The notes under the pieces are model-generated. The model ran no database searches. It was not told the DNA's origin and saw only the letters and a list, made by a program, of their open reading frames with translations. From Omphalotus guepiniiformis (lineage: Eukaryota; Basidiomycota; Agaricomycetes; Agaricales; Omphalotaceae), in the NCBI GenBank assembly GCA_028554645.1, contig JAQOOI010000070.1, positions 1,054,001 through 1,118,000 on the forward strand: DNA of 64,000 nt, written 5' to 3'. This document shows, one piece after another, positions 6,395-17,853 of the stretch. The translations under genes were made by a program, and so were the position numbers. The number at the start of each line of letters is the position of its first letter. Within the stretch, counting starts at the first letter, position 1.

Positions 6395-6399
6395 GCCCC

Positions 6400-6937
6400 T
6401 GTTACGGCTATGCGCCGGAACTCCGGGTCAGACCTCCGGTTTCTAGAACTTCTTTGATTTCTTCTTCCTGACATCTATTCAATCTTTCCATATGGTTCAC
6501 TTTACAAATTCACGCTTTCCTATTCGCTTTTATTATTCTTTTCTACTCCGGACATCCGAACGTCGCCAACGTTCCATGTTCTTATTGTTCTTTAGTTTCA
6601 TTCTTCTCACACTATTGTTTTATTACTCCGAGTATCTCCGGTAGAATACTCATATAAATACTTCACGCTTATACTGTATATACTTTAGTTTTAAATCAAT
6701 TTAGTCTCCGGACTACTATCTTGAATTTCTCGTCTGAACTCTCATCTCTCCTCGGACTTCCAATCCGGGTGCAGCACGGGGGGCAGTATCGAAATAATAC
6801 TGCCTACCGGGTGAAGTCTTGTTGCCGGAGCAATTCGGAGCTCCTGGTTCTCCTGTCTTGTTCCTTTCGACTCCTTCTCTCGGACCTCCTCGGAGGTCCT
6901 CGCTCTCTTACCGTCTCTAGTCCGCACGGACTTAACA
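6400..6937 (+). repeat. 5' LTR of the Ty3 chromovirus
   Basis: A 538-bp terminal repeat with TG...CA ends. It contains a TATA box (TATAAATA, 6653-6660). About 27 bases after that box lies AGTTTTAAAT (6687-6696), which is the predicted RNA 5' end because it is the exact complement of the primer-binding site. The distal part holds several inverted repeats: GGCAGTAT/ATACTGCC around 6782-6805, GGACCTCC/GGAGGTCC at 6882-6899, and AGTCCG/CGGACT at about 6919-6932. The copy at 14342-14879 is identical except at 6550 and 6837. Confidence 0.95.
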
Positions 6938-6949
6938 GTATTTAAAACT
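6687..6949 (+). promoter_or_regulatory. self-priming pair: transcript 5' end and primer-binding site
   Basis: The ten bases ATTTAAAACT at 6940-6949, starting two bases after the end of the 5' LTR where the primer-binding site belongs, are the exact reverse complement of AGTTTTAAAT at 6687-6696 in the LTR. The LTR copy sits at the expected transcription start, just downstream of TATAAATA. This is the arrangement known for Tf1 and its relatives, where the first nucleotides of the element's own RNA fold back and prime reverse transcription. No canonical tRNA-derived primer site (such as the TGG start complementary to a tRNA CCA end) follows the LTR. Confidence 0.7.
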
Positions 6950-6986
6950 CTTCTCTGTGCTGCCATTAATCAGGTCACAACATCCT

Positions 6987-8594
6987 ATGAACCCCTTACT
7001 TGAGGCTTCACAGTCTCATGCATCATTTTACCAAGGTCGTGATCCCAATGCTCTTCGTGAGCGGCGGAGATCCGGTCTATACTCAGTTCGCGCAAGTGAA
7101 TTCGTCTCACCAAGCCGAGGCTCACGCCTTTCTCAACAACCTCCGGTCCTATCGACCCTATTCTCACCAGGACACCTGCCTGGTTTCCGAAATCCTCCGG
7201 TAACTCCGACTCGTCGAACTTCCACAATGCCGGGAGTATTACCGATACATGAAGACGTTTCAGATACTGCTCCTGAAGAGCAGAATGACGAAGACGATGA
7301 CATTATCGCAGCGGCGACGGAAGGAGAGGCTGGAGATCAGCCAGAAGGAATAGAAGGTAATGGTGGGGATCCTGGAGAAGGCGATGAAGGTAATGGTGAT
7401 GGTGGACCAGGCCATGGAGGTCCAGGTGGACCTGGCGGGCCTGGAGGACCAGGTGGAAATGGTGGCGGTGGACCGGGTGGTCCTGGAGGTCCTGGGGGAC
7501 CTTCCGGGGGTACCGGTGGCACCGGTGATGAAGATTTTAGGCGGATGATGCAGGAGTTTCTTACCACTAGCATGGCTGGTTTTACTAACATGGCTAGGGC
7601 ATTTAATACACAGGCATCCGCAGCTCCGGAGAGCAAATCGCGCTTGAAGGAGCCAGACGTTTTTGACGGCTCGGACCCGCGGAAGCTCCGAAACTTCATC
7701 ATTTCCTTGGCCCTTCACCACTCAGATCGGCCTCAATATTTCTCTTCTGACGATCGTAAGATCACTTTTGCGCTCTCTTATTTGTCTGGATCAGCTCTGG
7801 AATATTTCCAGCCAGAGCTTCTGAACCCGGATCCGGACGATCCTCCGGCATGGATGGTCAATTATCAGGCCTTCATGCAGGAGCTGATGGAAAATTTCGG
7901 AGAGTATGATATGGAAGCGGAGGCTGAGCAACGCCTCAGTGGGCTCAAAATGAGGGATACGGATCGGATCCGTAACTACAATGTGAAATTCGGAGCCTAC
8001 GCAGCAATGGTTCTTTGGGATCAAGCTGCTTTACGTTGGGCCTATTATCAAGGTTTGCCATCTCGTATTAAGGACGAACTAATGCGGATCGAGTATCCGA
8101 AAACCTATCAGGGGACCCGGAAAGAGGCCACCAAGATTGACGCTCGCCACTGGGCTCGCTCTGCTGAAAAGCAGCGAGAACAGCGAACGTCCGGTGGAGG
8201 CTCCGGTAACTCCGGAAGTGGATCCTCTACTTCTCAATCCGGTTCGCAGAAGAAGAAGAGTGGCAGTTTCAACAGGCCCTCCTCTTCTTCTAACAACCGC
8301 TCGAACTCCGGAAACTCCGGATCTGGTTCTGGTTCTGGCTCCGGTTCTAACTCCGGCAAGACAAATTCCTCTTCGACCACGCCAAAACCATACGCGGATA
8401 GGCTAGGGAAGGATGGGAAGTTGACGCAGGCGGAGAAGGACAGGCGCCGGAAGTTGAAGTTATGTTTCTTTTGTGGAGGTAATCATACTATGGATAATTG
8501 CGATAAGCGGAAGAAGTTGAACGAGGCTCGTGGACGAGCTTCGGAGGTAACTTCGGAGGACTCCAAACCGACTCCAAAGGAGTCGGAAAAATAG
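6987..8594 (+). CDS. gag: Gag polyprotein of the Ty3 chromovirus
   Basis: A 535-residue structural protein that would form the virus-like particle. I chose ATG 6987 as the first in-frame ATG after the leader. After a Ser/Arg-rich N-terminus there is an acidic stretch, then a collagen-like Gly/Pro run (7366-7525). The retrotransposon gag core follows (FDGSDPRKLRNFIISLALHH near 7660-7715, then YLSGSALEYF). Next come a Ser/Gly/Asn-rich linker and a zinc knuckle at C493 (CFFCGGNHTMDNC). The knuckle spacing is CX2CX3HX4C, one residue shorter than the usual CX2CX4HX4C. The stop codon TAG (8592-8594) follows a run of five A, and the protease frame is already open in the -1 frame at that point. Confidence 0.92.
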   Translation: MNPLLEASQSHASFYQGRDPNALRERRRSGLYSVRASEFVSPSRGSRLSQQPPVLSTLFSPGHLPGFRNPPVTPTRRTSTMPGVLPIHEDVSDTAPEEQNDEDDDIIAAATEGEAGDQPEGIEGNGGDPGEGDEGNGDGGPGHGGPGGPGGPGGPGGNGGGGPGGPGGPGGPSGGTGGTGDEDFRRMMQEFLTTSMAGFTNMARAFNTQASAAPESKSRLKEPDVFDGSDPRKLRNFIISLALHHSDRPQYFSSDDRKITFALSYLSGSALEYFQPELLNPDPDDPPAWMVNYQAFMQELMENFGEYDMEAEAEQRLSGLKMRDTDRIRNYNVKFGAYAAMVLWDQAALRWAYYQGLPSRIKDELMRIEYPKTYQGTRKEATKIDARHWARSAEKQREQRTSGGGSGNSGSGSSTSQSGSQKKKSGSFNRPSSSSNNRSNSGNSGSGSGSGSGSNSGKTNSSSTTPKPYADRLGKDGKLTQAEKDRRRKLKLCFFCGGNHTMDNCDKRKKLNEARGRASEVTSEDSKPTPKESEK

Positions 8595-8596
8595 TC
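8583..8596 (+). promoter_or_regulatory. candidate -1 frameshift site between gag and pol
   Basis: The gag frame reads TCG GAA AAA TAG. Slipping back one base on the A run gives AAA ATA GTC, which opens directly into the protease frame with no stop before 9356. The run GGAAAAA is not a perfect X XXY YYZ heptamer (the first slot would mispair), so slippage would depend mainly on the AAA codon. A small gag-to-pol shift is common in Ty3 elements, but use of this site is inference. Confidence 0.45.
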
Positions 8597-11500
8597 CGCA
8601 GCCCAGATGCCTCGACACGAAATTTGGGTTGCGTTGGCCACGATCGTGTCATCTCCGAGGTTACTCTCAACGCGTCCGCTCTTTTACACCACTCTGATTC
8701 GCTTGTATTACCACTTTGTATCAATCGGAGCTCCTCGGGCCTCAAGGGCCTCGTTAGGGAGCCCGAAAATGAGTCTACTTCATTTTTGAAATTTTCTACG
8801 TTACTTGATTCTGGTTCTTCTCATAGTTTCCTCGATTCAAAATTTGTTCATGATTATTTTCTTCCGGTAACTCCGGTTCCTCCGGTTCGACTACGCCTTC
8901 TTGATGGTTCAACCGCTTCTTCATTAATTGAAGAGCTTGTTACTTTACCTGTTCAATTTCCTTCCGGGGAGACCTTGTCTCTTGACTTTTTTGTCACTTC
9001 TTTGGATTCGTCTTGTAAAGCTGTTTTAGGATACAACTTTCTCACCCGCTACAACCCGTTGGTTGACTGGGTCACAGGAGTTATTTCATTCCGAAACACT
9101 GATCAAACAGTTCCATCTCCCATTCCGCAGGCTGCATCTTCAACTCCGGTTGAGGTAGCGTCCATCGACGCATCTCCGACACCTACCTCTCGTCCTCGGA
9201 AGGCGAACTTTCCCTTTGAACCCATCTACTCATATCCAACCGTCACGCAAATGGGAGCAAGAATTTTGGACCCGTCGGATCCGGATATTGCTTTTATTGG
9301 TGCTGCAGCATTCATACGGGCTTGCAAGGAAGCTGGACAAGATCCCATTGTGATCTAACGGACGTCCGGTTACCTCCGTTACTGGTAACGCAGCATCTAT
9401 CCATTCACCTGTTGATCTCTCCGGAATACCGGAAGAGTATCACGATTTTGCTGACGTTTTTGATGAAGGTCTTTCAGAAGTCTTACCACCGTACCGCCCT
9501 TACGACCTTAAAATCGACTTAGAGGACGGTGCTGAACCTCCCCTCGGACGTGTTTACCCACTGTCCGCAAAGGAACTAGAGGCCCTTAGGGCTTTCTTGG
9601 ACAAGCATCTCGCCAACGGATTCATTACGACCTCTTCATCTAAACACGGAGCTCCGGTATTGTTTGTTCCTAAAAAGAATGGCTCACTCCGTCTCTGTGT
9701 AGATTTTCGTGGCTTGAACAAGATTACCCGCAAGGACCGGTATCCTTTACCATTAATTTCCGACCTCCTCGACGCTCCTAAAAAGGCGAAAATCTATACC
9801 AAGCTTGATCTTCGACATGCTTACCACTTGGTCCGGATCGCCGAGGGAGACGAATGGAAAACTGCTTTCCGCACCAGATACGGCTCTTACGAATGGAAGG
9901 TCATTCCCGAGGGACTAACCAATGCTCCGGCGGCTTTTCAACGGTTTGTAAATGAAATATTTGCTGACTTACTAGACGTCTACGTTATTGTCTACCTTGA
10001 CGACGTTCTAATCTATTCGGACAACCGAGCAGACCATCGAAAACATGTCCGCGAGGTTCTCCGACGCCTCCGGAAGCACGGCTTATTCTGCAATCCCAAC
10101 AAATGTGTCTTCGACTCCGAAACTGTTGAATACCTCGGTTACATTCTGTCACCGGACGGTCTTCGGATGTCCGAGGAGAAGGTTAAGGCCATCGTCGATT
10201 GGCCCCTTCCTCGACCCGGACGAATCAAAGACATTCAGTCCTTCCTTGGTTTCTGTAATTTCTATCGCCGTTTTCATCTTCAACTATTCTGGTATCGTGG
10301 TTCCACTAACTCGTCTTACTCGCAAAGGTATTCCTTGGAAATGGTCCGAGGAGTGTCAACATTCTTTTGATTCACTTAAATCTGCTTTTCTTTCCGCTCC
10401 TGTTCTAACTCACTGGGAACCTGACCGACAGATAATCCTGGAAACGGACGCCTCGGACTACGCCATAGCGGCAATTCTTTCACTTCGTATGGACGATGGA
10501 GAAATCCATCCAGTCGCATTTCTTTCTCGGACCCTTCATGCCGCCGAGCTCAACTACGACACCCACGACAAGGAGCTCCTCGCCATCTTTGAATCTTTCC
10601 AACACTGGCGGCATTACTTGGAGGGCTCCGCAACGCCGGTCGACGTGGTCACAGATCATAAGAACTTGGAGTACTTCAGTACTACCAAGGTCTTGACACG
10701 CCGACAGGTTAGATGGAGTGAATACTTGTCTCACTTTAATATGGTAATCCGGTTCCGACCGGGACGCCTCGGAGCAAAACCTGACGCTCTGACTCGACGT
10801 TGGGACGTCTACCCAAAAGAGGGAGATAGCACTTACGCTACGGTCAATCCACAGAATCTGAAACCGATTTTCACCCAAGAACAACTATCGACTTCACTTC
10901 GAGCAACCTTCCTAGAAGGTCCAGTCCTTCGCGCTAGTATCATTATGGATCTCGACAAACTACACCAGTCGATCCGGGAATCTCTAGCTTCAGACCCGGA
11001 GTCCAAGGCAGGTATGTCACTTGCCAATGATGATGCTAACAAACGTTGGACTTTAGACAACTCCGGACAACTCCGGCTCGACAGTCGCATTTATGTTCCA
11101 GACTCGGGTGACCTGCGGCTTCAGGTACTTCGATATTTCCATGACCACCCACTTTCAGGACACTTTGGGCAGAACCGGACACTCGAGGTCATCCGAAGAC
11201 AGTATACCTGGCCTCGGATCCGAGAGTTCGTCCGGTCCTACGTGCAATCCTGCACTGTTTGCGGTCGCAACAAGAGCCGTAGACACCGTCCTTATGGTCT
11301 TCTTCAACCTCTCCCAGTTCCGGAACGTCCTTGGGATTCCATATCCATGGACTTCATTGAACAACTTCCGGACTCTCATGGCTTTACAGCCATTCTAGTC
11401 GTGGTAGACAGGGCATCTAAGCAAGCCATTTTTATTCCTACTTTTGACACCATAACCTCCGAACAGCTAGCCCAACTTTTCGTCCTTCACGTATTTTCCA

Positions 11501-12432
11501 AACACGGTGTTCCTCGGCATGTCACCTCCGACCGGGGCTCCGAGTTTGTCTCGCAGTTTTTTAGGGCTTTAGGTAAAGCGTTGCAGATGGAACTTCATTA
11601 CACCTCCGGTTATCATCCGGAGGCTGATGGACAAACTGAACGAGCTAACCAAACTCTGGAACAGTACATCCGAATTTATTGCTCTTACCAACAGGATGAC
11701 TGGGATGAACTATTGGCCATTGCAGAGTTTGCCTACAATAACGCTCCGAACGACTCCACTGGCATTTCACCCTTCTTTGCCAACAAAGGTTATCACCCAA
11801 ACCTTTCAATACATCCGGAATACGACCTCGCATCCGACCGGGCTCGACAGTTTGTGGTCAACCTTGACGAGCTCCACACTTTTCTACGCAATGAGATTAC
11901 TCTTGCTCAGACTCGTTACAAGGAACAAGCTGACCGGCGGAGGTCCTCGGCTCCGGAATTTCCCATTGGCTCAGAAGTATATCTTAACGCTAAGCACATT
12001 CGTTCTACCCGTCCTACAGCTAAATTTTCCGAGAAATATCTAGGACCATTTAAAATTCTAGCTCGACCTAGTAACCTTGCCTATACACTACAGCTTCCGG
12101 ACTACCTCCGGTCCGTACATCCAGTATTCCATGTCTCTCAACTCGAACCAGCACCTCCCAACACCATTCCTAACCGCACACAACCTCCGCCTCCTCCGGT
12201 TGAGGTCAACGGCGAAGTTGAATACGAGATCGCTCAAATACTGGACTCCAAGTTGGATCGGAGACGCCGGAAATGTCCGCTATTGTACTATGTCCAATGG
12301 CTTGGTTATGAAGGAACAGATGAAGAATTCTCGTGGGTCTTAGCTGATGAACTCACGGCTGAAGACTACATCCAGGATTTCCATGTCCGATATCCGGACA
12401 AACCTGGACCTCTGTCGAAGTTGACAATCTGA
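8588..12432 (+). pseudogene. pol: Pol polyprotein (PR-RT-RNaseH-IN-chromodomain), broken by two frameshifts
   Basis: Pol is legible in three successive frames. The first (open from 8588 to 9358) has the aspartic protease motif LLDSGSSHSF near 8801. A one-base shift near 9356 leads to the reverse transcriptase frame, with [11 protein letters not shown] and the catalytic YLDDVLIYS (about 9991-10017). A second one-base shift near 10270, in a TTTT run, leads to the last frame. That frame carries RNase H (LETDASDYAI, about 10437), the integrase HHCC region ending CTVCG, the integrase D,D,E residues (SMDF about 11345, TSDRGSEF about 11524, GQTERANQ about 11632), and a chromodomain (YYVQWLGYEG...FSWV, 12285-12340). 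Both shifts behave as single-base insertions. They could be real mutations or sequence errors. The chromodomain would direct integration into heterochromatin. Confidence 0.9.
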
Positions 12433-12637
12433 TCGGACGTCCTCGGACGTTGACGGTCTTGGTGTTTCTTTCTTTCTCTCTATCCCTTTTGCTCTCTCTC
12501 TTTCTATCACGCTTATCTCGTTATAAAAAACAGACATTTCTTTATACAAAACAAAACAAAAGCTATCAAGAAAAACAAAACAAAAGACATATTATATACA
12601 AGTTCTTTTTCTTTTCTATCTACAACTCCTTCTCTAT
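12433..12637. terminator. convergent 3' region of pol and the antisense gene
   Basis: These 205 bases separate the stop codon of pol (plus strand) from the stop of the antisense gene (minus strand). They contain a C/T-rich stretch and an A-rich stretch with repeated AAAACAAAACAAAA motifs (about 12525-12590). This composition would suit polyadenylation signals for both directions, but no single signal can be assigned. Confidence 0.35.
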
Positions 12638-14119
12638 TCATGTCCTACTCGGACCTCCTCGCTCTTCCCGTCGTCTTTCAATTTCTTTTCGCCTTTCAGC
12701 GAACATCTTTCGCTCCTCCGCGGTATAGCGAGTATTCGTTTCCTCTTCTTCTCTGATCCTCTCTGCCGGTACTTCTCGGAGCCCCGTACAGATCTCGTCC
12801 ACCTGCTCAAAAAACTCAGTCAACTGAGCGGCCTCTCCGCCCAGTACTCCTTGCACCATCCTACTGTTCATGACACTAGGCAACGTCGGCTCTCGCACCT
12901 CCGGACGGGCATCCGATCGCTCTGCTTGGTCGCGCTCCCAAGCAAAGTGTAATTCCCGGCCCATTTCGGCGAGCCGGATCGAGGCGTTGATTATTGCCTG
13001 GTTCATGATATAGGACCCCTGAACAGGAGTCGTGGCACCCATTGCCATTCCCAAGGCAAGGGCCCAGTCGCGGGTCCGTTCCGCCAAGAATACACCCCAA
13101 CTAGAGACCTCTTCTCTAGTTGAGTAGACGGCGGCGTCAACGTCATCGATCCGCCGGTTCACCAAGTCCAAGTCGGAGAGCTCCGCGGAGTCCCGAGGCT
13201 CTCCTGCTCGTCCCTCTACTTTCTTCTCCAACTTAGCTAACCTAGAAAGGATTTCTTCATTTTGCTGCATAAGCAGCTCGAGGGAAGCCGGAGAAAAAGA
13301 AGTGGTGGTGCTCGGAGCACCGACTCGCTCCGAAAACGAGCATTTTGATTTTTGTTTCCTGCATTCGTCGCAGGAGGTAGACTTGGTGTTCCGAGGGCGC
13401 CCGGAACAGTGGTATCGTCGTGCCCGGCACTGCAGGCAGGCGGGTCGGGAGCTAGGAGCTCCGGTTTCTTCTTCTTCGTCCTCTTCATCTGAAATGACAA
13501 TAGACTAATATTTTGTTATAACTCAATTCCAATACTGGTATTCATTTACTTACCGCTGAAATCACATTTTTTCTCTTTTTCTTAGGAGACCCACCGGCCT
13601 CCGGTTCTTCTTGCGCCTTCCGTTTTCCATCCCTCTTCTCTTTCCTTCTCCTCGCCTCCTCGGCCTTCTCAATAGCCCGCCTGGCTTTCCTCTCCTCCTC
13701 CGCCTCACTTTCCTCCTCGGCCCTCCGGTTCTCCTCATCCAGAATCCTTTGCGCCTCCTCAACTTCTCTCCTCCTCCGCTCTCGCTCCTCCGCCCTCCAC
13801 TTTTCTTGCGCCTCCTGACGCCACTCCTGAATCCTCCGGACTTCCTCTGTCCACTCATTCTTTGCCTTATCGTACTCAGCCCACTCCCTATCTTCTTCCT
13901 GTTCAACTAAAAGAACATTGAGTATCGGACATCCGCAGACAGGATAAACTCACCCAAGGCAATAGCCACTTTTATTCTGTCAAACTCCTCCGCATTCTCC
14001 GGTGTCTTCCTTCGAGGTAAGGCTGGTTTGACCCTTGGCTCGGGTTCCGGACGTCCGAAGGGCGCCGGTAAGGGGTACTCCTCCTCAAAGCTGGGGGTGG
14101 TGGCGCGGTTTGATGACAT
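12638..14119 (-). CDS. antisense three-exon gene in the retrotransposon: Zn2Cys6-like, coiled-coil nuclear protein
   Basis: On the strand opposite to gag-pol, three exons join cleanly: 13954-14119, 13554-13906 and 12638-13504. The introns are 47 nt (13907-13953, GTGAGT...TTTTAG) and 49 nt (13505-13553, GTAAGT...ATTAG). The product is 461 residues. Residues about 58-160 are a highly charged Glu/Arg helix, ending in the nuclear-localisation-like PKKKRK (163-168). An acidic stretch follows. Six cysteines at 196, 199, 206, 218, 221 and 228 have spacing CX2CX6CX11CX2CX6C, which fits the fungal Zn2Cys6 binuclear cluster. A Ser/Thr-rich linker and a heptad-like helix starting near residue 252 come next, the usual order in zinc-cluster DNA-binding proteins. 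The C-terminal part is helical and unrecognised. A TATA box lies 66-73 bases upstream of the ATG. DNA binding is inferred; the target and role are unknown. Confidence 0.75.
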
Positions 14120-14184
14120 CGTTGTGTTGGGCCTACGGGGTGGATTTGCGCGGGGTTGAGGAACTTAGAGGTTTGCAGGCTAGG

Positions 14185-14192
14185 CTTTTATA
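14185..14192 (-). promoter_or_regulatory. TATA box of the antisense gene
   Basis: Read on the minus strand this is TATAAAAG, a consensus TATA element. It sits 66-73 bases upstream of the antisense start codon (14119) and outside the 3' LTR, inside the element. This suggests the antisense gene has its own promoter rather than relying on the LTR. Confidence 0.55.
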
Positions 14193-14261
14193 TCTATCCA
14201 GTGTTTGGCAGGATTTGGTCGATGTTGAAAATTCGGACACATCTCACTCCGAGGGGCAGGG

Positions 14262-14341
14262 TCGGACTTGGGACTTCGGACCTGGGACTTGGGACTTGGG
14301 ACTTAGGGTTCTTGAGGGCAAGAACCCTAAGAGGGAGATAC
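14262..14341 (+). other. short GGGACTT repeat, perfect hairpin and polypurine tract before the 3' LTR
   Basis: About 14262-14304 consists of imperfect 7-base repeats of the form GGGACTT. It is followed by a perfect hairpin: AGGGTTCTTG (14305-14314), loop AGGG, CAAGAACCCT (14319-14328). Directly after it comes the purine-rich AAGAGGGAGATA, the expected polypurine tract that primes plus-strand DNA, ending at the LTR start (14342). The hairpin has no standard role in Ty3 elements that I can name. Confidence 0.6.
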
Positions 14342-14879
14342 TGTTACGGCTATGCGCCGGAACTCCGGGTCAGACCTCCGGTTTCTAGAACTTCTTTGAT
14401 TTCTTCTTCCTGACATCTATTCAATCTTTCCATATGGTTCACTTTACAAATTCACGCTTTCCTATTCGCTTTTATTATTCTTTTCTACTCCAGACATCCG
14501 AACGTCGCCAACGTTCCATGTTCTTATTGTTCTTTAGTTTCATTCTTCTCACACTATTGTTTTATTACTCCGAGTATCTCCGGTAGAATACTCATATAAA
14601 TACTTCACGCTTATACTGTATATACTTTAGTTTTAAATCAATTTAGTCTCCGGACTACTATCTTGAATTTCTCGTCTGAACTCTCATCTCTCCTCGGACT
14701 TCCAATCCGGGTGCAGCACGGGGGGCAGTATCGAAATAATACTGCCTACCGGGTGAAGTCTTGTTGCCGGAGCAATTCAGAGCTCCTGGTTCTCCTGTCT
14801 TGTTCCTTTCGACTCCTTCTCTCGGACCTCCTCGGAGGTCCTCGCTCTCTTACCGTCTCTAGTCCGCACGGACTTAACA
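14342..14879 (+). repeat. 3' LTR of the Ty3 chromovirus
   Basis: Direct copy of the 538-bp 5' LTR. Only two substitutions separate the copies: G at 6550 is A at 14492, and G at 6837 is A at 14779. Both change a CpG to CpA. It is followed by the target duplication GCCCC (14880-14884). Confidence 0.95.
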
Positions 14880-14884
14880 GCCCC

Positions 14885-15536: not shown

Positions 15537-17853
15537 GTGCCGAAAATTGGCGCATCATCGTCATGACTGGGGAGTATAAGTTGACGGCAACACCTGGCGA
15601 CCAGGATAATGTGAGTTGTAAAATTCTTCTGGCTTATTGATTGGGCACTTAACGCCATCGTAGAATGTTCGCAAACTCATTGGAAACGTGAATCACCTCA
15701 TGGGCAGTGATCCCACACGCAGGTTTATGTTTGGCATGACAGTTGAGTGTACAGACACCAGGTTTTGATTCTTTTTGAGATCACATGTTTTTGTAACGGA
15801 GGTTCTTGACCTTCATAAAGTGCGTCATACTTTGTCCCGTCATACCCATACATTCTGATCTATTTTTTTTGCTTAACAGGATGCTGAGGCCTTGGTATAT
15901 TTCATTTTTTCACTCGGTTCGGCCCATAAAGTGGAGCTTGGATTCGACCACACAGTCAGAAGAGTGGCAGGCAAGAATGGCAAACCCCGATACAGGTACA
16001 GAATTGGCAAGGAATGGTATGAAGCTATCAAAGCTATCAGCATATACAAAACGAAATTTCTACTTGGCCGTGCCAACTGTGTCTTCAAGGTTAAGTGTGT
16101 GCAAAAGAAAGGCAAAAAAGGCAAAAAGGAGAAATTAGGCAGAAAGACATTTTTCCTAAAGGATGCATGGATTTCAGAGGGAGGGAAAACAGAGCTCCAG
16201 GTGCTTCAAGGCATCAAGGCGAAGATTAACCAAGTCAATCCTATCACACTGCCAACAATTCAACATAAATCCCACGGGAAAATATTACAAATATGGTGAA
16301 ATAACATGAAAAATTACACTTTTTCATGTTATTTCACCATATTTTTAACATTTCCCTGCAAAATTTATGTTGAATTGTTTGCAGTGTCAAAGACTTGGAT
16401 GCGGAAGATTTTGATGACTTTTTCGTGCCCATCAGAGCATGTGAGTTTGTCAAAGTACCTTCGATGACAGACTCGCAAGGAGGACTTGTTGTCGACAACT
16501 CCAGCAATTTCCTGTGGTCCCACAAGCTTCCTCCCGAAAGGACGCCGTTCCCCCTCGAGCGCGACTCGAATGAATACACCAGAGGATCTCGTACGCAGCG
16601 AGAGTCTATGATGGCAACGTCGACGATTGGCACGCCCTCGAGATATTGTGTACCTCCTGAAGGATTGAAAGAGATGAACAGGGAGCATTATGGAAATAAA
16701 GCCCATTGTCGTATGTTGATGGACGATGCTGGCAAACCCCTTGAGGAGATTTGTAATTGGTGGACGATACTCGCATGTATCACCCAAGTCATAGTAGGTG
16801 ATTAATCAGTGTTAGAAAACTCCTGGCCAGAACATTAGGTCTGACTTTTTTCTAGCATTGCAGTATATGCACTCGGCAGGATATGTCCACAGAGACATTA
16901 GCACCGGAAACATACTTGTTCATACGAAGCCAAACGGAGACATTATCTGCAGGCTGAGCGACATGGAGTATGCGAAAGATCTTTGTCAGCCTTCCAGCTC
17001 GAAAGGCAGTGTCAAAACAGTGAGTCTTGCTGTCTTCGAGGTTGTATACTCGCATTCAGTGATTACCTTAATGCAGGGGACCCTGCTATTCATGGCTATT
17101 GAAGTTGCAGAGAATAAGTATAAAGTTGGTGCAGAGAAGTCTGTGACTCAGGAATCTGCTGGTACGAATGCTTCGTTACGCAAGACCAAGCATGTGCGGA
17201 ACGCCAATTGGCAGGGGAACTTGAGATCACAGGGAATACCCAAACAAATTGATCATCAGGAAGGGGGTTCGGGGAAACGCAAGCCTCCATTCCGATATAA
17301 TTACCTTCACGATATTGAATCTGTATTTTGGGTGCTCGTGTTCTTCCTCACTCTCATGCAACCTGAAGGGGCGGCTGACCCAGAGGAAGAAACGGAAAAA
17401 TTTTGTTGGGACTTATATTCAGAATTGTTTTTCTCGGACACTAGGCGGCGTTTGGATCTCCTCACATGTGTACCCGGCGAATGGGACGAGATTCGTGCAC
17501 AGACACACGACTCTTTCATTGCAACGTGGAATTTGGTTTTCTTCTGGGCCGAGAAATTACTGGCGGAACATAGGAGGGTACAGCAAACGATCTCCATATC
17601 ACCTGCCGATTCATTTTCGGTGCGCCTGTATTCACTGATACTGGATCAGGTGGCAGATACTTTCCCGCCCGATAGGGACTGGGATGGTGAAGTTACTCCG
17701 CAATTCAAGCCGCACCGGATGCGGATGCATTTCAAGCGCCTGAGAAACGAAAGGTTGCACCGGGTCCGGATGTACCTCGAGCGGGTTCACTTTCCAAGAA
17801 AGCGAAGCATAGTAGATAGGATGCGGAATTTTCATGCACTCTACTTATGGTGA
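15537..17853 (+). pseudogene. FunK1 fungal-type kinase, C-terminal part; nonsense codon and MITE insertion
   Basis: FunK1 proteins are a family of kinase-like proteins expanded in agaricomycetes. Legible exons start with ENWRIIV...GEYKL (15540-15611), then NVRKLIGNVNHLMGSDPTRR (from 15664), then VFVTEVLDLHK just before a donor at about 15817. The next exon begins DAEALVYFIFSLG (15880). The kinase part follows: YMHSAGYVHRDISTGNILV (HRD motif, 16865-16921), RLSDMEYA (in place of DFG) and HDIESVFWVLVFF. An in-frame TGA at 15766-15768 stands where FunK1 relatives usually have Trp. A palindromic MITE lies in the exon at 16247-16386. The only N-terminal candidate is 11.7 kb upstream, beyond two transposons. 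A full-length product is therefore unlikely. Confidence 0.75.
16244..16389. mobile_element. 140-bp palindromic MITE in a FunK1 exon, TSD TCA
   Basis: The segment 16247-16386 is nearly one complete inverted repeat. It starts CACTGCCAACAATTCAACAT and ends with the complement (CACTGCAAACAATTCAACAT read on the other strand). The centre is an almost perfect hairpin around GTGAAATAACATGAAAAA. TCA flanks it on both sides (16244-16246, 16387-16389). Removing the element and one TCA restores the host frame (AAT CCT ATC AAA GAC). It has no coding capacity, so it would need a transposase from elsewhere. Confidence 0.8.

Follow-up and report, generated by a model that had tools for sequence, protein, structure and literature searches.

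A conserved antisense zinc-cluster gene and candidate binding sites along a Ty3 chromovirus family of Omphalotus guepiniiformis

The locus described here raises the question of what a spliced gene encoding a putative zinc-cluster protein is doing on the antisense strand of a retrotransposon, and whether its product may act on the element that carries it. The window, which is the whole 64,000-nt stretch analyzed in the present study, corresponds to positions 1,054,001-1,118,000 of the forward strand of contig JAQOOI010000070.1 of Omphalotus guepiniiformis (GCA_028554645.1). It contains an element at 6400-14879 (Table 1), the 538-bp LTRs of which differ at 2 positions and are flanked at both sides by the duplicated GCCCC. 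Pfam matches in pol were RVT_1 (3e-41), RT_RNaseH (2e-35), rve (9.8e-12), and Chromo (1e-5; 25.8 bits against a cut-off of 25.1), with a protease match (PF12384) just at its cut-off. The order of the pol domains with a C-terminal chromodomain identifies the element as a Ty3/Gypsy chromovirus, and its TG..CA LTR ends and 5-bp target-site duplications are also those of chromoviruses. In a comparison set of 20 copies that included the window copy, two LTR matches were found in the fetched stretch for 15; 14 of these had 5-bp duplications, and the fifteenth had a truncated LTR match. The LTR pairs of the 15 differed at only 0-4 positions, and the family therefore moved recently. A pol frame of 1303 or 1307 residues was kept in 10 of the 20 copies; in the window copy pol is split over several frames, whereas other copies retain the long frame. 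Elsewhere in the window, an ORF at 16816-17853 matched the fungal protein kinase family PF17667 (E 3.1e-12), and an inverted repeat at 16236-16397 consists of two 78-nt arms that are 83% complementary and 6 nt apart.

Table 1. Positions of the features discussed in the text (window coordinates unless a piece is named)
Feature	Position	Strand	Basis or remark
Target-site duplication GCCCC, left copy	6395..6399	.	sequence
5' LTR (TGTTAC..TTAACA)	6400..6937	+	LTR comparison
gag ORF (DUF4939 + Retrotrans_gag)	6987..8594	+	start taken as first ATG of the longer open frame, by eye
pol region: protease, RT, RNase H, integrase, chromodomain	8507..12432	+	Pfam; frame interrupted in the window copy
Nine CGG-N4-CCG dyads in gag-pol	7065..11542	.	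starts 7065, 7466, 9359, 9422, 9647, 9834, 10018, 10164, 11533
Exon 3: acidic stretch, zinc cluster, leucine-rich helix, C-terminal domain, TGA	12638..13504	-	gene model, Pfam
Eight CGG-N4-CCG dyads within the antisense gene	12777..14057	.	starts 12777, 12906, 12967, 13186, 13313, 13718, 13926, 14048
Coiled-coil-like stretch SLELLMQQNEEILSRLAKLEKKV	13217..13285	-	by eye; low-confidence helix in the structure model
Zn2Cys6 cluster CX2CX6CX11CX2CX6C, residues 196-228	13340..13438	-	cysteine pattern, Pfam
Intron 2, 49 nt, GTAAGT..TAG	13505..13553	-	gene model and copy comparison
Exon 2: charged helix-like region ending in PKKKRK (13569-13586)	13554..13906	-	gene model
Intron 1, 47 nt, GTGAGT..TAG	13907..13953	-	gene model and copy comparison
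Exon 1 of the antisense gene	13954..14119	-	gene model and copy comparison
TATAAAAG box of the antisense gene	14185..14192	-	sequence; identical in 20/20 copies
Polypurine tract adjoining the 3' LTR	14329..14338	+	by eye
3' LTR	14342..14879	+	LTR comparison
CGG-N4-CCG dyad in the 3' LTR	14358..14367	.	matching dyad of the 5' LTR begins at 6416
Target-site duplication GCCCC, right copy	14880..14884	.	sequence
Antisense gene of the sister clade	L035:751-1902, L034:803-1952	-	apparently four exons

The antisense gene occupies the slot between the end of pol and the 3' LTR, and reads on the minus strand from an ATG at 14119 through three exons to a TGA stop, giving a protein of 461 aa. A clean three-exon, 461-residue gene with splice sites had been claimed in the first-pass annotation of this DNA, and the gene model arrived at the same coordinates and length. 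A CAG acceptor at 13491 was also considered for intron 2 and rejected because it breaks the frame; the TAG acceptor at 13507 restores the 461 residues. The Zn2Cys6 consensus is CX2CX6CX5-12CX2CX6-8C, which the six cysteines of the antisense protein fit. The cluster claimed at first pass was likewise recovered by Pfam as a member of Zn_clus (PF00172; E 8.9e-5, 22.9 bits against a cut-off of 21), and the PKKKRK stretch and the gene's own TATAAAAG box were found as described (Table 1). PKKKRK is a basic stretch resembling a nuclear-localization signal, and the helix after the cluster is a likely dimer helix. No further Pfam domain exceeded its cut-off in exon 2 or exon 3, and when residues 190-461 were searched against a large protein collection, none of 2289 candidates qualified as a homologue at E 1e-3. 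A single-sequence structure model had a mean pLDDT of 47, too poor for a fold search, and comparison with solved structures gave a weak match to LEU3 over half of the zinc cluster (E 0.07). According to the available description of Zn2Cys6 factors (PMC5559640), most of the group comprising Gal4, Leu3, Put3, Ppr1, and Pho7 bind paired CGG triplets as dimers, while Pho7 recognizes TCG(G/C)(A/T). The antisense protein shares the six-cysteine cluster with these factors, but differs from them in that its cluster lies in the middle of the protein behind a long charged region.

The gene is a regular component of the family. A DNA search of the host genome returned 35 matches, 27 of which covered at least 1389 of the 1555 bases. 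In a second search with the pol end as query, which scored its best candidates, every full-length match listed was followed approximately 200 bases on by the antisense gene (26/26, one gene being interrupted), such that the homologues sought in other copies are present. The gene is intact, with an ATG and a single terminal stop, in 18 of the 20 copies compared, and exon lengths among these 18 differ by multiples of 3 only. GT..AG borders both introns in all 20 copies, intron lengths shift by single bases (46-48 and 49-50), and TATAAAAGCCTAGCCTGCAAACCTC, a TATA stretch, is identical throughout. The first-pass proposal that the introns would survive retrotransposition is consistent with their presence in 20/20 copies; it is the antisense arrangement that allows an intron-bearing gene to ride an element that moves through RNA. 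dN/dS was 0.06-0.10 between subfamilies, far below the value of 1 against which it had been proposed to be checked, and 0.27-0.28 in two lower-divergence comparisons (L021 vs L027 and L021 vs L028); one near-identical pair was too alike to inform the ratio. For pol it was 0.05-0.12 in the pairs compared. The antisense gene is under purifying selection, and is plausibly a regulator that would work from the integrated DNA.

As a separate observation, the synonymous divergence of the antisense gene was several-fold above that of pol among L010, L017, L020, L024, and L027, with dS between subfamilies of 0.25-0.47 for the gene and 0.04-0.075 for pol in the same pairs. In the L017/L020 pair, the values were 0.010 for the antisense gene, 0.060 for pol, and 0.229 for gag. 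Due to this mismatch, the copies are regarded as mosaics of mixed ancestry, in which old versions of the gene are exchanged among backbones that differ little.

Regarding the occupancy of this slot in related elements, a sister Ty3 clade with an RT approximately 62% identical to that of the clade of the window element carries an unrelated antisense gene in the same place between pol and the 3' end. Modelled with four exons, its protein has 330 residues in L035 and 327 in L034; other in-frame combinations are possible. The sister gene was found at 13 places, at 12 of which a sister-clade RT lies within approximately 4 kb on the opposite strand, and TATAAAA was noted by eye upstream of its ATG. 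Its C-terminus contains acidic VIDL-type stretches, which we take to resemble SUMO-interaction motifs. The zinc-cluster protein had no match in two sister-clade pieces. Pieces of three further Ty3 families held no antisense ORF that could be assigned to the element, a search that a short spliced gene could escape and in which the element end of L040 was unmapped. The CpG observed/expected ratio was 1.01 in the window element and 0.29 in the sister element (L041+L035), as if only the sister element had long been methylated; this contrast is suggestive at most because two gene-less Ty3 pieces of approximately 700 bases each, with ratios of 1.62 and 1.29, were not depleted either.

A protein search of the same genome revealed, besides the element copies, clustered matches of 36-51% identity. 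At least seven of these paralogue matches lie in C15:178-194 kb and form a tandem array, near-copies of parts of which sit on other contigs, several near contig starts; the pieces examined were L030-L031 (C15:176001-196000), L029, L032, and L033, and a scan of the fetched pieces for telomere repeats found none. The 28 kb of array sequence in L029-L031 lacked any match to element DNA, and the paralogues are thus stand-alone; in L032 the sole element match was a 54-base stretch inside the cluster region. The paralogues align with the antisense protein from its first residues to its C-terminus, with 30-50% identity to the window protein over exon 3, and all six cysteines are present in every paralogue piece that spans the cluster. 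Inspection by eye placed intron 1 of four paralogues at the position that it has in the element's gene, in phase 1; intron 2 agrees in position, in phase 0, in the best-preserved paralogue. The most economical origin would be that a host gene entered the element in antisense together with its introns, and this direction is preferred because of the absence of element DNA from the 28 kb of array and of the gene from the two sister-clade pieces searched. In a midpoint-rooted tree, the Ty3 rows and host A appeared without resolved branching, which also allows the reverse direction.

If the product is a zinc-cluster factor, CGG-based sites would be expected to indicate where it acts, considering the preference of the family. 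In the element, 18 copies of the dyad CGG-N4-CCG were counted where 4.0 were expected (N14 spacing, 12 times), and each LTR holds one approximately 17 bases from its start. The host array contains it 23 times against 4.8, above every other CGG-CCG spacing, and this signal is not merely that of shared coding sequence because array sequence outside the gene-family matches still held 14 against 2.5. No excess was found in 55 kb of host flanks (4 vs 4.9), and other Ty3 pieces with their flanks (27.7 kb) contained the dyad once. Order-4 Markov simulations reached the observed maximum at any spacing in 0/200 cases for the element, 0/200 for the array, and 20/200 for the host flanks. Within the element, gag-pol alone showed a modest N4 excess (9 vs 2.8; some spacing reached 9 in 8/200 simulations), and gag showed none (2 vs 1.0-1.1 in two copies, 0 vs 1.2 in a third). 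When all trinucleotide pairs were ranked at spacings of 0-20, CGG-N4-CCG came eighth and CTC-CGG itself came top. The element and the array, which have no mutual DNA match but carry homologous zinc-cluster genes, thus have one dyad at one spacing in common; this shared N4 dyad is the best evidence for a candidate cognate site, which we infer to be that of the antisense protein from its co-occurrence with the gene and the CGG preference of Zn2Cys6 proteins.

Shorter words of related composition also accumulate. CTCCGG occurs 44 times in the element against 6.8 expected and CGGA 213 times against 89.4 (0/100 dinucleotide shuffles each), while 20 kb of host sequence in the same window gave 2 vs 6.2 and 98 vs 122.4, respectively. 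The excess persisted when synonymous codons were shuffled: CTCCGG in gag (11 vs 3.3) and pol (15 vs 5.3; 0/300 each) and in the antisense gene (7 vs 2.7; 2/300), and CGGA in gag (49 vs 28.4), pol (97 vs 54.3), and the antisense gene (33 vs 18.0; 0/300 each). CGGAC was not in excess in gag by the same shuffling (4 vs 4.8). Base composition was considered as the source of the CGGA excess and was ruled out by dinucleotide shuffles, codon-preserving shuffles, and order-4 Markov simulations. Six further copies show the same words, L014 less so, with only part of its stretch aligning as element. The sister element (7.6 kb) had no excess (CGGA 17 vs 16.3), and is a weak control because it is CpG-depleted; three further Ty3 pieces (1.4-2.3 kb each) contained CTCCGG 0-1 times, and one of them had CGGAC 7 times against 1.9. 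Genome-wide, paired CTCCGG within 30 bases gave 336 matches where the reversed control pattern gave 169, and these pairs are not confined to the element family, many places elsewhere being among the matches listed.

In the antisense gene, synonymous third positions within CGGA/TCCG were changed in 32 of 452 cases, whereas identical codons outside these words predict 62.6, a count over non-independent pairs; two roughly independent pairs gave 6 changes in 75 such positions against 10.9 (z -2.2). Synonymous-site conservation was not significant in pol and gag. Among control words, GGAG was also conserved and CGGT partly so, while CGAG, CGAA, GAAG, and GAGG were not.

A gene product that binds the LTR and its own promoter alone, with the sites in the coding body being incidental, is the strongest of the alternatives and nonetheless an unlikely one. 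In its favor, each LTR has a dyad near its start, TCGGAC occurs 3 times against 0.1 expected between the gene and the 3' LTR (0/100 shuffles), and the TATA box is conserved; against it, CGGA and CTCCGG remain overrepresented in gag, pol, and the antisense gene after codon-preserving shuffles. The spread of the sites through the body suggests, by analogy with VANC21, an action on chromatin along the entire element and not at the promoter only. An element studded with such sites that also encodes a predicted DNA-binding protein suggests that the protein may recognize and regulate the element's own copies.

The mechanism that we propose begins with a chromodomain Ty3/Gypsy element that would have captured a host zinc-cluster gene in antisense, host introns included. 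The gene's own TATA promoter would drive its transcription, and would do so in no other than integrated copies, since splicing clears the introns from the antisense transcript alone. The protein would then enter the nucleus, dimerize, and bind CGG-N4-CCG dyads and CGGA half-sites along the LTRs, the gene, and the body of its own element, and this binding, acting in trans over the family, would activate transcription or hold silencing off in the manner of the VANC proteins of plants. We regard the evidence as evenly balanced on whether a captured factor made from integrated DNA binds the sites of its own family and keeps it transcribable in this way. The fuller reading is held more tentatively, as somewhat less likely than not: that the element took over a host regulator with its introns and tagged its body, coding sequence included, at synonymous positions, that the outcome is family-wide self-recognition and anti-silencing, and that the antisense slot is modular, with the sister clade holding a different spliced gene.

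Further alternatives were weighed. The protein, or the antisense transcript through double-stranded RNA, may restrain the element and limit its copy number. Antisense genes could pair with genomic RNA in this manner (PMC7264820, in the part available), and retention of the gene at every complete pol end among the matches listed is compatible with such a role; however, a purely RNA-based function needs neither a protein with dN/dS of 0.06-0.10 nor exon indels in threes, and we consider self-restraint rather improbable overall. It is more doubtful still that the proteins of the array bind the shared dyad in order to repress or use the element, with the element's copy serving as a competitor or decoy: the same dyad is enriched in the non-coding DNA of the array itself, and the paralogue pieces spanning the cluster have all six cysteines, but a decoy is not expected where the element itself gathers such sites. 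Most CTCCGG words are on the strand of the genomic RNA (38 vs 6), a bias that symmetric dimer binding to DNA does not explain and that would suit an old passenger gene of other use beside words reflecting RNA packaging, another RNA-level role, or the composition of a past host, but this is the least probable reading, given that the excess withstands codon-preserving and Markov controls and that the same dyad spacing recurs in an otherwise dissimilar host array.

VANDAL elements, with which the preferred reading of self-recognition and anti-silencing invites comparison, are DNA transposons. The VANC proteins of Arabidopsis VANDALs are element-encoded and act with short motifs concentrated in their own family, and VANC21 is directed to its own family by motif density, according to the available parts of two reports (PMC5735166, PMC10398659, the latter point in PMC5735166). 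Motif concentration in the element's own family was also found here by site counts. VANC motifs are described as lying mainly in non-coding tandem repeats (PMC5735166), whereas the sites of the window element are interspersed and many are coding, and the comparison is therefore limited to the mode of action; moreover, binding and loss of methylation have been demonstrated for VANC in these descriptions (PMC5735166, PMC10398659), while binding by the window protein is predicted from its sequence. Sireviruses resemble the window element in having palindromic motifs with CGG-CCG cores in a retrotransposon near the promoter, but are plant Ty1/copia elements with the motifs in the LTRs and near env, and the available description does not mention an element-encoded zinc-cluster protein (PMC2829016).

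The host paralogues and the site enrichment go beyond the first-pass annotation. Its claim that a gene of this type was unknown from described fungal Ty3 elements did not hold, because an antisense gene, brtn, has been published for the Boty-like Ty3 elements of Botrytis cinerea (Zhao et al., 2011, as described in PMC8365987, PMC7264820, PMC4227169, and PMC5987419). In these partial accounts, brtn is likewise an extra antisense gene in a fungal Ty3 element, the Boty-like pol product has a chromodomain, and a brtn-like sequence was also reported in a Monilinia transcript; compared by description alone, a zinc cluster, introns, a host origin, and site accumulation are not mentioned for it. In plants, Grande (gene23), RIRE2, PvRetro13, and Retand (TRP28 domain) have antisense ORFs between pol and the 3' LTR, as in the window element (PMC7264820, PMC11963269). 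Gene23 is reported there to have its own promoter and a nuclear product, and TRP28 of Retand is predicted to bind DNA, but the proteins are different ones and a matching site accumulation is not mentioned in the available parts. A literature search over titles and the starts of abstracts, with subscription papers mostly outside its coverage, found no zinc-cluster gene with matching sites in a fungal retrotransposon. Genes in the antisense slot are thus already known from plants and Botrytis, while the combination of a zinc cluster with sites in the element itself was not found in the literature searched.

A review, as far as its available part goes, states that the functions of the antisense accessory genes of LTR retrotransposons are unknown (PMC7264820). 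The present family makes this question testable because it offers a predicted site, approximately 27 near-complete gene copies in several subfamilies, host paralogues, and the gene of the sister clade. If self-binding is true, the family would represent a convergent counterpart of plant VANC anti-silencing, in a retrotransposon and in fungi, and would be a case of selection for binding sites that lie within coding sequence.
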